Below are positions 43,703 through 62,469 of a stretch of DNA of 64,000 bases, one piece after another. The DNA comes from Prochlorococcus sp. AG-363-N16. GTDB taxonomy: Bacteria > Cyanobacteriota > Cyanobacteriia > PCC-6307 > Cyanobiaceae. The stretch covers positions 1 through 64,000 of the forward strand of contig QCFW01000001.1 of the NCBI GenBank assembly GCA_003280135.1. Direction: 5' to 3'. The position numbers and the translations under genes were made by a program. The number at the start of each line of letters is the position of its first letter. Within the stretch, counting starts at the first letter, position 1. Under the pieces are notes generated by a model. It was not told the origin of the DNA and made no database searches. It saw only the letters and a program-made list of their open reading frames with translations.

Positions 43703-44181
43703 AGTACTTGCAGTAGTACCTCGCTACATCTCTGAGGTCGCCCGTGATGTTGTTCTTTCCTTTTCCGCCCTCCTTCCTCGACAGTGGTCCTTTTAGATCT
43801 AGTCGATTTGCTGCCTCTGTATAAGTGAGTTAATTCGCATTCCAACAAGCACAAACTTCCATTCGTTTTTCAAACTCAGGCGAATGAGCATTGGCAACAC
43901 TAGGTATATTAGGTGCAGCGATTAAGGGGATTAACAAACGTTTCATATATCCATAATAGAGATAGTTGACAGCCGATCTTCGGATCAATGAAAGAGTCGC
44001 TTTAAATAGGCGGCTTTTTTATTTTTTAGAAGGGCTAACAATTATTTCTCTGATCTTTTGAAACTGCGTTATTTATTGGGTTCAAAAAATGCTTTTGTGA
44101 GTAGAACCTGAAGAGTTGCCCTCTGACACATCAAAATTTAAGTTAAATATGAGATGCTTCTCATGTTTATACAAAATTATC

Positions 44182-44481
44182 ATGTCTAAGGGGTATTGGG
44201 TCGTTACAACAACAGTTACGAATCCAGAAGGGTTTGGAGAATATGTACAAGGCTTTGCTACTTGGATTGAATCAATTGGTGGCAAGGTTGCTGCTAAAGA
44301 TCTAGATGCAAAAACTGTTGAAGGTAAAGGCGGTCACCTTGCTGTGATTATTGAATTTGCATCTAAAGAAGTAGCTTCAGAGGCTTATAATAGAGCCGAT
44401 TATCAAGAGTTAAGTAAATTGCGCTGGGCTAACTCTACTGATACCAATATCACGATTATGGATGGTTCAGTAAATCACTAA
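44182..44481 (+). CDS. DUF1330 family protein, intact copy
   Basis: MSKGYWVVTTTVTNPEGFGEYVQGFATWIESIGGKVAAKDL...RWANSTDTNITIMDG. Confidence 0.85.
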   Translation: MSKGYWVVTTTVTNPEGFGEYVQGFATWIESIGGKVAAKDLDAKTVEGKGGHLAVIIEFASKEVASEAYNRADYQELSKLRWANSTDTNITIMDGSVNH

Positions 44482-45119: not shown

Positions 45120-45281
45120 TTATCTATTATGGATTAGAGGGTAATCGTATTCGTCTAATTGGAGTTCTTTCTTGATCAACCTAGCCTTCTTGTAAAGGTT
45201 CATAGTCTCTCGTCTACTTGAAGCATGCTCTGCCTCCTGTATTATCTTGGAATACTCCTTGTGTAGCTGTGTTTTTGTCAT
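45120..45281 (-). CDS. Divergent micro-ORF (53 aa, not in ORF track), module copy A
   Basis: My translation: MTKTQLHKEYSKIIQEAEHASSRRETMNLYKKARLIKKELQLDEYDYPLIHNR*; homolog near 61013-61159. Confidence 0.7.
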   Translation of the reverse strand: MTKTQLHKEYSKIIQEAEHASSRRETMNLYKKARLIKKELQLDEYDYPLIHNR

Positions 45282-45321
45282 AGTTGATAAAAAGTAATAG
45301 ATATTTTTCTCGCTTAATGTA

Positions 45322-45362
45322 TTGACAGTTACGGGATAACCGCATTAGTATAAGTGTACTAC
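45322..45362 (+). promoter_or_regulatory. Promoter with LexA-box-like operator, module copy A
   Basis: TTGACA at 45322 and AGTATAAGTGTACT at 45347-45360 over the -10 region. Confidence 0.55.
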
Positions 45363-45455
45363 TGCAAGAGACATGGCTCCAGTTTCCTCACCTTACGCCT
45401 TAGTCCAAGCGTCTGACTGGAGTTCAGCAGTAGCTTCACCTATTGGTATCGGTCA

Positions 45456-45737
45456 ATGTATAAGGATAAAACCCAAAAAGTTCTACCCAAAAAGCGATAC
45501 GCGGAAGAAGAGGGTTGGGAGTATATCGAAGAAGGTTCGCTCAAACTCTCACGTTCAGCTCGCGTTTGCATGACATGTGTTCACTTCCGTTATTCCTGTG
45601 ACAAGTATTGCCACACTTTGCTTACTTGCAATGCTCACCATCGCCTTATTCCGCAAGGAGCACACCTAACTAGTAAATGTCCTCAATGGCATAAGAACTA
45701 TGAGGAACAATATGGTCTCTGTCCCGAAGCTGCTTAA
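45456..45737 (+). CDS. Cys-rich hypothetical protein
   Basis: KRYAEEEGWEYIEEGSLKLSRSARVCMTCVHFRYSCDKYCHTLLTCNAHHRLIPQGAHLTSKCPQW; eight Cys. Confidence 0.75.
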   Translation: MYKDKTQKVLPKKRYAEEEGWEYIEEGSLKLSRSARVCMTCVHFRYSCDKYCHTLLTCNAHHRLIPQGAHLTSKCPQWHKNYEEQYGLCPEAA

Positions 45738-45740
45738 CAA

Positions 45741-45917
45741 ATGAATAAAGATCAACTCGCCCAACAAATCTCTCTAGCGATGCATAAGTCTCCCAATGCT
45801 CGTTTAGATACTGTTCACTCCTATCTCAATACCTATCAGGGTTTATCCCATTATTTTAAGGAACTTTCAATAGATGATATAGAAGGAATTGGGACTCAGT
45901 ATGGAGTAAAAGTCTAG
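45741..45917 (+). CDS. Small hypothetical protein (58 aa, not in ORF track)
   Basis: My translation: MNKDQLAQQISLAMHKSPNARLDTVHSYLNTYQGLSHYFKELSIDDIEGIGTQYGVKV*. Confidence 0.6.
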   Translation: MNKDQLAQQISLAMHKSPNARLDTVHSYLNTYQGLSHYFKELSIDDIEGIGTQYGVKV

Positions 45918-46012
45918 TCATTACAACTCTGAAATGACAGAGGTTCGGTCTTCGATTTGATTTATATCCCTTATATGTGGTAGAGATAGAAGTTCAGACT
46001 TAACTACCCATC

Positions 46013-46492
46013 ATGGGATCATTAACGATAAAAGTCTCAGCTAAAGCTGAGGCGATGATAGCAACTCTCCAGAAGGAGATTTTTAATCGTAGACGCAAGA
46101 AAGTTACTGCAGTGGGTGTAGTAGAGACTCTTGTAGAAAGCGGTGCGAAGTCTCAATCTGATAAGCGTTATGCTGCTTCTTGGAAGAACCTAATCAAGGA
46201 TATTGAGAAAGCGGCTAAAGCTTCAGAAGTACATGGCAATAAGCCAGCCAACATCTCAGCTGAAGAGTGGGCAATGCTAGTAGCTCACCGTACACGTAAG
46301 GGAGCTGCAGCTACCAAGAAACCAGCACCTAAGAAGCGTGTGGCAAAGAAAGCAACTGCTAAGAAAGCAGCACCTAAAAAGGCTGCAGCTAAGAAGACTG
46401 TTGCTAAGAAAGCAGCAGCAGCTCCGGCAGCAGTCAAGCCAAGAAAGGCTAGACGTGCAAAGAGAGCTAAGGCTCCAGCAGCAGCTAAGTAG
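46013..46492 (+). CDS. Histone-H1-like protein with Lys/Ala/Pro-rich C-terminal tail, copy A
   Basis: Folded N-terminus (MGSLTIKVSAKAEAMIATLQKEIFNRRRKKVT...) then KKxAxKKAAPKKAAAKK tail. Confidence 0.8.
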   Translation: MGSLTIKVSAKAEAMIATLQKEIFNRRRKKVTAVGVVETLVESGAKSQSDKRYAASWKNLIKDIEKAAKASEVHGNKPANISAEEWAMLVAHRTRKGAAATKKPAPKKRVAKKATAKKAAPKKAAAKKTVAKKAAAAPAAVKPRKARRAKRAKAPAAAK

Positions 46493-51255: not shown

Positions 51256-51453
51256 AAATTCATTATGCCTAATAAAAAAGATATTGAAGTAATTCAATTT
51301 TTTAGAGATGGTGCATTCATTACTCTTCTCAAGGAGGAGTTAAGTAATCAACATCGTCTTTTTGATCAGGAGCCATACTCGTGATGATTAGGTAATGAAT
51401 ATTTCCTATTTTCTAGGAATAATGCAAATATCTTTTAATCTTAATTATTTTGT

Positions 51454-51749
51454 ATAGCAAAAGGTTATTGGATAGTTACCACAACTACACCAATCCAGCT
51501 TTTAGAGAATATGTGGAAGCTTTTCAACCCTGGCTGGAATCTGTAGGTGGATCAATTATGGCTAAAGATATGGATTCAAAGACCGTTGAAGGCAAATCTG
51601 GAAAACTTGCAGTGAGGATTGAGTTCCCTTCAAAAGAGGATGCGATTGACTCTTATAACAGGGGTTATTATCAAGAAATTAGTAAATTGCGTTGGGCGAA
51701 TTCAACTGATACAAATATCATCATTATTGACGGTCAAGTGATTCCTTAA
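51454..51749 (+). pseudogene. DUF1330 family, frameshifted second copy without ATG
   Basis: KGYWIVTTT in frame from 51454, then 1-nt deletion near 51485-51490 shifts to TNPAFREYVEAFQPWLESVGGSIMAKDMDSKTVEG. Confidence 0.75.
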
Positions 51750-60667: not shown

Positions 60668-61012
60668 CGCAATTAGACCTCTTAACCAAAGTTATGATTT
60701 AGAGCCAGTTTTTTCTAGCTTCCTCGGCAAATTTTCGACTTATAATCTCTGCCTCAGTGAGATTAACCTTGAATGTTTTTTGGTTAATTTTCTTTTGCGG
60801 TTTTGTTTTTGTCGTTGATCCCACTTGTAGACACCGTTAATTAGATTGATACCGAGGATCATTTTTTCATATTTAATGCGCAATATGTGGCTTTAAAGAG
60901 TTAAGTAATTATTAAAAAATTCGGCATTGGTAAAAATCGCCCCTTTTGCGAAGCAACTTCATAGCCATAAGATGTTTTGTAAATTAAATCAATTTTTTAG
61001 TGCTCATCTGAT

Positions 61013-61159
61013 TCTCTTTGCTTGAAGCTCTTTCTTTATGAGTCTAACTGTTGTACATAAGCTGATCTTTGCTCTTCTACTTGAAGCTATTGCGGCTTCA
61101 TTCAAAGTCTTCGAATATTCCTCTTGCAGCTGAGCAATTAAAATAACTTTCTCAATTAT
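61013..61159 (-). pseudogene. Divergent micro-ORF, module copy B (no standard start codon)
   Basis: Frame reads IIEKVILIAQLQEEYSKTLNEAAIASSRRAKISLCTTVRLIKKELQAKRIR*, homologous to 45120-45281. Confidence 0.65.
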
Positions 61160-61189
61160 TAAAAGTCAGAAATTGATTAGCTGATGCGT

Positions 61190-61228
61190 TGACAGGCACT
61201 AAAAAAGAATATAGTATATATGTACTAT
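61190..61228 (+). promoter_or_regulatory. Promoter with LexA-box-like operator, module copy B
   Basis: GCGTTGACAGG then AGTATATATGTACT at 61213-61226. Confidence 0.55.
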
Positions 61229-61608: not shown

Positions 61609-61715
61609 GACCATATTTTCACGTAATATAGGTTTTATATGTCTTAGACACGGTTTGTATGTTGTATTTTACGCCTTATATGTGTTAGAGGTAGATATTG
61701 GACTTAACTACTCAC

Positions 61716-62216
61716 ATGGGACAACTATCTATAAAAGTTTCAGCAAAGGCTGAGGCTATGATTGCCACTCTGCAGAAAGAGATTTTTAATCGCCGTCGTA
61801 AAAAAGTTACTGCACAAGGTGTAGTTGAAACTCTTGTTGAATCTGGTGCAAAATCTCAATCTGATAAGCGCTATGCAGCTTCTTGGAAAAACCTAATCAA
61901 GGATATAGAGAAAGCAGCTAAGCAATCAGAAGTACATGGCACTAAGCCAGCCAATGTTTCCGCTGAAGAATGGGCATTAATTGTTGCTTATCGTACGCGT
62001 AAGGGGGCGGCTGTAAAGAAGGCTGCACATAAAAAGCGTGTAGTAAAGAAGAAAACAACTGCAACGAAGGTGGCTCCTAAGAAAGTGACTTCTAAAAAAA
62101 TTGCTGGAAAGAAGACAACTGCCAAGAAGGTTTTAGTGAAGAAAGTAGCTCCAACTGTAGCTACTAAGCCAAGACGAGCCAGGAGAGCTAAAAGAGCTAC
62201 AGCCACTGCTAAGTAG
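61716..62216 (+). CDS. Histone-H1-like protein with Lys/Ala-rich tail, copy B
   Basis: MGQLSIKVSAKAEAMIATLQKEIFNRRRKKVTAQGVVETLVESGAKSQSDKRYAASWKNLIKDIEKAAK; ATG at 61716 aligned with copy A start. Confidence 0.8.
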   Translation: MGQLSIKVSAKAEAMIATLQKEIFNRRRKKVTAQGVVETLVESGAKSQSDKRYAASWKNLIKDIEKAAKQSEVHGTKPANVSAEEWALIVAYRTRKGAAVKKAAHKKRVVKKKTTATKVAPKKVTSKKIAGKKTTAKKVLVKKVAPTVATKPRRARRAKRATATAK

Positions 62217-62240
62217 TTTCAGCTTTTATGGAAATGTTTA

Positions 62241-62270
62241 AAGGGGGATATCGCTACCCCCTTTTTTTTA
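62241..62270 (+). terminator. Rho-independent terminator
   Basis: AAGGGGG-ATATCGCTA-CCCCCTTTTTTTT. Confidence 0.88.
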
Positions 62271-62469
62271 CCTTCAAGGCCTATGACTTTTAGAGAATAG
62301 AAGTTTACTTAATTTGTTTTCTCAAAATGATTGAAATCAAAACAGTAGCCTGGATTGGGGCTCAGTGACTACGCTATAGCTTTCTAGGTCATTACACTGA
62401 GGTGTAATTGCTCGAGCGTTAAGACGGATTTACTTATTGGTTCTATTTAGATAGACCGAGAGAAGACTC

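Follow-up and report, generated by a model that had tools for sequence, protein, structure and literature searches.

A multi-copy picocyanobacterial operon with LexA-type boxes, a small conserved lead gene and a histone H1-like gene: a candidate member of the SOS regulon

The window, the 64-kb stretch of DNA analysed here, is the first part of a 202-kb contig (C1) in an assembly of 1.40 Mb that is 82% complete. Two of its regions (Table 1) share a leftward micro-ORF or its remnant, a rightward promoter-like site overlapped by a LexA-type box, small ORFs and a gene for a protein with a histone H1-like tail. The duplication of this module, reported in an earlier note on the same DNA, is real and was understated there: the genome holds four copies rather than two, the third (C1:64884-66031) lying 0.9 kb beyond the end of the window and the fourth on another contig (C19:13525-14393). 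Searches by tblastn across the fetched loci reveal a recurring gene order, consisting of a 66-aa lead protein, a Cys-rich ORF, a DUF1651 gene, a gene for a 58/60-aa protein and the H1-like gene, and each copy keeps a subset of this common set. Copy 1 has retained the lead, the Cys-rich ORF, the 58-aa protein and the H1-like gene; copy 2 combines an alternative first ORF with DUF1651 and the H1-like gene; copy 3 has the lead, the Cys-rich ORF and the H1-like gene; and the fourth copy has the 60-aa protein and the H1-like gene. The middle genes, previously taken to be unrelated, are therefore different subsets of the gene set of one operon. A pair of small genes with 72% DNA identity (44233-44466, in ORF 44116-44481, and 51501-51734, in ORF 51450-51749) was also seen in the window.

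Table 1. Features at the two operon copies inside the window (positions are those of the window).
Feature	Position	Strand	Remarks
Divergent micro-ORF, 53 aa	45120..45281	-	coding family
Promoter-like site TTGACA-N18-TAGTAT	45322..45351	+	overlapped by LexA box
LexA box AGTATAAGTGTACT	45347..45360		matches published consensus
Lead, 66 aa, SSPYA...ASDW...HVQLAFA	45373..45573	+	conserved boxed family; codon constraint in both clades tested
Cys-rich ORF	45456..45737	+	shares ~118 nt with lead, read in a different frame; constrained in the window's clade
58-aa protein	45741..45917	+	homologous to 60-aa protein of the C19 copy
Promoter-like leader of H1-like gene	45929..46012	+	conserved at boxed and unboxed loci
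H1-like protein, 159 aa	46013..46492	+	~97-aa conserved domain and Lys/Ala-rich tail
Micro-ORF remnant, copy 2	61004..61138	-	no standard start codon
Promoter-like site TTGACA-N17-TAGTAT	61189..61217	+	overlapped by LexA box
LexA box AGTATATATGTACT	61213..61226		AGTAYANNTGTAYT match
Alternative first ORF, copy 2, 58 aa	61242..61418	+	TTG start; overlaps DUF1651 gene; conserved in several relatives
DUF1651 protein (PF07864), 75 aa	61381..61608	+	E = 7.8e-22, 77.9 bits against a cut-off of 22
Apparently homogenised H1-like unit, 739 bp	61635..62372		99.7% identical to C1:65456-66194
H1-like gene, copy 2	61716..62216	+	start is ATG at 61716

Both 14-mers that had been read as LexA boxes are present, and each overlaps the second hexamer (TAGTAT) of its TTGACA promoter. 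Within the window, AGTAYANNTGTAYT has these two matches only, with a mean of 0.01 in shuffled sequence and two matches in none of 100 shuffles; the whole assembly contains four, three of them at H1-like loci, and the reversed control contains none. A box of the [AG]GTATANNTGTACT type stands upstream of all four H1-like genes, two of which lie outside the window, the individual sequences being AGTATAAGTGTACT, AGTATATATGTACT, AGTATAGATGTACT and GGTATATTTGTACT. The published cyanobacterial LexA consensus is AGTACWNWTGTACT, with Prochlorococcus recA sites such as AGTACAGATGTACT (PMC3091678), and the form TAGTACA-N2-TGTACTA has been described as well (PMC2921402). The genome encodes a full-length lexA (184 bits), whose box at the gene start, GGTACATATGTATT, is the same as the published MIT9211 lexA site (PMC3091678), together with recA (536 bits; box GGTACGTCTGTACT) and umuD/umuC (box GGTACATTAGTACC). 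A perfect palindrome about 46 bp long (C1:about 118011-118056) has the umuD box at its centre.

The earlier note had looked to the absence of the operator from orthologous loci as evidence against its reading. The operator recurs at such loci: AGTAYANNTGTAYT occurs within 1.5 kb upstream of 38 of the 73 H1-like loci of relatives, a set made non-redundant, against a mean of 0.03 and a maximum of 1 in shuffles that do not model relatedness, and 1 in the reversed control. A LexA PWM with the published sites as its sole input scores at least 9.5 just upstream of 29 of 30 distinct lead homologues, which were hand-picked for diversity out of the protein search hits, while shuffles yield 0.2 on average. 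At the 38 boxed loci the box precedes the H1-like gene by 0.5-1.2 kb; among the lead homologues it usually stands about 25-28 bp before the ATG. Of the 83 sites in the fetched loci where TTGACA was found, 74 have it 18-19 bp ahead of the box. The strict box is absent from 35 of the 73 H1-like loci, including all single-copy Synechococcus-type ones inspected, this label and that of high-light Prochlorococcus being our own assignments, drawn from genome size and gene content. Among the matches listed, the relatives reached through the H1-like protein were all Prochlorococcus or uncultured picocyanobacteria.

Does the operator serve LexA, or another, lineage-specific repressor with a LexA-like palindrome that would leave the operon outside the SOS response? 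In the window's clade the operon boxes consistently read AGTATA rather than AGTACA, the C to T change at position 5 (AGTAT for AGTAC) setting them apart from the consensus, and they score 9.5-15 against 16-22 for published sites, whereas the lexA, recA and umuD boxes of the genome retain GGTAC. This change has a simple explanation, however, in an improved overlapping second hexamer (TAGTAT). Sister genomes, moreover, have AGTAC forms at the equivalent operon position, among them AGTACAGATGTACT, which equals published recA boxes (PMC3091678), and no gene for another dedicated regulator is linked to the operon. We consider a separate repressor very unlikely. The LexA-type operator put forward earlier fits the published consensus, the genome's own lexA, recA and umuD boxes, the position of the promoter and the recurrence at orthologous loci, and the promoter is predicted with high confidence to be under LexA control. 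As a candidate member of the LexA/SOS regulon, the operon is strongly supported by the box at its promoter, by a lexA gene with its own box in the same genome and by conservation at orthologous loci.

Another small gene with a conserved LexA box (AGTACAAATGTATT; AGTACAAGTGTATT in L177) was seen in relatives, at loci L163, L165, L167, L177, L179 and L181. Its product of roughly 72-80 aa has a hydrophobic segment and the end FASICxKYN..ACxxW, and a site in the window's own genome, outside the window at C7:17436, is matched by the AGTACAAATGTATT-type box only. We regard this gene as a candidate SOS cell-division inhibitor.

The lead is the core of the operon and its most informative part. Its profile matches 75 of the 201 sampled genomes of the family, many of the compared genomes being incomplete, and a query of its 25 N-terminal residues, conserved as SPYAVFxAEDW, matches 72 genomes. 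The protein matched no Pfam or NCBIfam family, and the family appears undescribed within the open-licence PMC literature, with an earlier description elsewhere possible. Conserved in sequence and in its box, the lead is very probably a real, SOS-induced protein. Its C-terminus differs between groups. Ten Synechococcus-/Cyanobium-type homologues end in VQGDLF, VQGELF or IQGDLF, and two from probable high-light Prochlorococcus end in QMQLVFA. The window's group has HVQLAFA or a similar end, which is not a canonical clamp motif; one Synechococcus-like genus (L254, L264 and L269) has a lead without any such C-terminal motif. The QGDLF and QGELF ends resemble the clamp-binding pentapeptide QL(S/D)LF, which is variable and usually C-terminal (PMC9690074). 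Guided by this likeness, we tentatively suggest that the lead may contact the sliding clamp, a proposal to which we give somewhat less than an even chance.

The Cys-rich ORF shares part of its DNA with the lead. In the window's group (n = 16), substitutions are distributed over the three lead-frame positions as 0.25/0.40/0.35 in the overlap and 0.26/0.17/0.58 in the non-overlapping part of the lead, and as 0.22/0.22/0.56 over the ORF's own frame in the Cys-only part; taken together, these patterns make both frames look constrained. Another clade (n = 13) shows a purely lead-like pattern in the overlap (0.28/0.14/0.58) and nearly even values over the Cys-only part (0.31/0.32/0.37), so the Cys-rich ORF appears to have decayed there. 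We regard the overlapping pair as a clear example of dual coding, with decay in one clade. A possible alternative start of the Cys-rich ORF, an ATGA formed with the stop codon of the lead, is frequent among the sequences, and the predicted structure of its product (pLDDT 41.3) is uninformative. The 93-aa Cys ORF was also considered as the main gene and was ruled out, given its decay in one clade and the persisting constraint on the overlapping lead frame.

At the other end of the module, the leftward micro-ORF had been described as shared by both loci. The two are indeed homologous (59% over 37 aa), and the family shows coding behaviour, with substitutions of 0.26/0.16/0.58 by codon position in 64 pairs. 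The second copy lacks a start codon, however, and looks decayed, since no ATG, GTG or TTG precedes the conserved stretch, where the sequence reads ATT. A further member at C19:4810 has no H1-like neighbour, and the micro-ORF is thus a frequent neighbour of the operon rather than a defining part of it.

The other end is the H1-like unit. The near-identity between copies 2 and 3 spans this unit and excludes the genes upstream, and two other genomes have the same kind of identity over about 580 bp. In each of these three genomes its 5' limit falls between -81 and -84. The H1-like units look homogenised, via gene conversion or duplication, which would explain the right-hand part of the pattern of kept ends and changed middles, so that no cassette is needed. 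The cassette suggested earlier, taken as a mobile element that keeps its ends and exchanges its cargo, would agree with two to four copies per genome that lie within 4-45 kb and vary in their middles, and with a cyanophage contig that carries an H1-like gene. Yet no recombinase was recognised among the nearby ORFs of the ORF list, the nearest tRNA is 35.4 kb from the copies, the identity is limited to the H1-like unit without spanning both ends, and the middle genes are related and constant in order. We judge this reading to be quite improbable and rejected it as the main one. In place of a cassette, the data point to H1-like copies that recombine and to genes gained and lost inside one operon. 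Thus, of the earlier interpretation, the LexA-type operator stands and the cassette does not, while nucleoid binding is still something we infer, from the Lys/Ala/Pro-rich tail of the H1-like protein.

The H1-like genes and their 5' leaders are conserved, as previously stated, with one correction: copy 2 begins at the ATG given in Table 1 and not at an upstream TTG (61698). The four genes of the genome lie at C1:46013, C1:61716, C1:65537 and C19:13525. Across 32 sequences the first 97 residues are 79-89% identical, and only the tail, which is Lys/Ala/Pro-rich in both translations from the window, is H1-like. The protein matched no Pfam family above the cut-off, and its N-terminal domain has no counterpart among Pfam families, solved structures or folds; the AlphaFold model of the domain (pLDDT 60.7) was uninformative, the fold search giving no match below E = 6, and no match to the domain was found outside the family among 292 genomes of the phylum. 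A likeness of the N-terminus to ribbon-helix-helix proteins was an impression from the sequence only and is not claimed. The leader follows the pattern TTGA ... TGTGsTAGATGT ... ATG, which is also found in Synechococcus-type genomes and on the cyanophage contig. In the Synechococcus-type genomes the H1-like gene is single-copy, adjoins an aldolase-like gene and keeps its leader without a strict LexA box. At many loci, in the window (45929-45960) and in relatives, the H1-like promoter is preceded by a near-palindrome like CCTCTGACATGACAGAGG, a possible operator or RNA hairpin.

Owing to this leader and to the lack of a LexA box in Synechococcus-type genomes, control of the H1-like gene by DNA damage is less certain than that of the first genes. 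It is conceivable that SOS control is limited to the first genes, and that the H1-like gene is constitutive, an ordinary nucleoid gene driven by a promoter of its own and placed downstream by arrangement. The leader is identical in type with or without a LexA box, including at the single-copy genes beside the aldolase-like gene, and the 5' limit of the recombining units in three genomes would likewise agree with an independent unit. However, dozens of loci repeat the order lead-(Cys)-(DUF1651)-(58 aa)-H1, and the stretch from the LexA promoter to the H1-like gene yielded no plus-strand candidate in terminator scans. We regard the constitutive reading as a credible alternative, with roughly one chance in three, and slightly favour the view that read-through from the LexA promoter raises the level of the H1-like protein.

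The middle gene of copy 2 is a clear member of the DUF1651 family (PF07864). In both Synechococcus and Prochlorococcus MED4, DUF1651 genes rise when cyanophages infect the cells (PMC5490813), a response that fits SOS control and also a role in phage infection. The LexA operon could accordingly be read as mainly an anti-phage or phage-responsive module, and a T7-like cyanophage fragment (L184, an IMG/VR contig) does bear an H1-like gene (450-944, 89% identity), next to psbA, hli and a T7-like portal gene and with the host-type promoter-like leader kept. The lead, however, was not found in viral contigs at the sensitivity used, and annotated phages gave no match to the H1-like domain. Phage infection can also trigger the SOS response secondarily. 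A mainly phage-directed module seems unlikely to us. At another locus (L175, G052:C1:831622), a DUF1651-like gene immediately follows a LexA box, without a lead.

With these alternatives weighed, a multi-copy SOS operon is the best explanation of the locus as a whole and probably the right one. RecA-stimulated cleavage of LexA frees LexA-bound promoters. We propose the following model. DNA damage would activate RecA, LexA would be cleaved and the operon promoter released. The lead would be made first, as a small SOS effector, and could touch the replication machinery via its C-terminal clamp-type motif, restraining or re-routing replication; this motif would be QGDLF in Synechococcus-like members and would have diverged to QLAFA in the window's clade. 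Read-through would add to the basal amount of the H1-like protein, which may coat or compact the nucleoid. In its full form, the model describes an undescribed picocyanobacterial SOS checkpoint: a LexA-controlled protein of 60-75 aa would dock on the beta clamp via a C-terminal QGDLF-type motif and, after UV, slow replication or re-route it. In the window's Prochlorococcus lineage this checkpoint would have been duplicated and coupled to the H1-like protein. We offer this full version as speculation, and the odds are clearly against all of its parts holding together.

What would be the relevance of such a system? UV delays chromosome replication in Prochlorococcus PCC9511, where the authors attribute the delay to low dnaA expression and where lexA itself is not UV-specific (PMC2921402). 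Given that attribution, the lead is an additional candidate and not a proven cause. For the UV replication delay in Prochlorococcus and marine Synechococcus (PMC2921402), it nevertheless provides a concrete and testable candidate mechanism. If the model is true, the copies of the H1-like operon would extend the damage response of a very abundant phototroph to the coating of its chromosome, and UV damage may thereby switch on proteins that act on the chromosome itself.

Several known systems invite comparison. The clamp-type motif recalls SocB of Caulobacter and other clamp-targeting toxins or effectors, a likeness within the model only, in that such a motif could restrain replication elongation. 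Unlike SocB, the lead is a 66-aa protein under predicted LexA control with no paired antitoxin here, and no sequence relationship is claimed. The Lys/Ala/Pro-rich C-terminal tail of the H1-like protein is like those of Chlamydia Hc1/Hc2, Pseudomonas AlgP and Burkholderia NF038053, but its N-terminal domain of about 97 aa is unmatched among bacterial H1-like proteins, NF038053 reaching only E = 0.019 and 15 bits against a cut-off of 80. DUF1651 genes are known as phage-response genes of marine cyanobacteria, and the available text of PMC5490813 does not state a placement in a LexA operon. The available text of two studies of the picocyanobacterial LexA/SOS regulon (Li et al. 2010, PMC3091678; Tetu et al. 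2013, PMC3744912) mentions neither the lead nor the H1-like operon, and the word 'histone' is absent from it. As far as that text goes, the operon and the regulon it describes are alike in the box, in its overlap with the promoter and in the boxed lexA, recA and umuDC genes.
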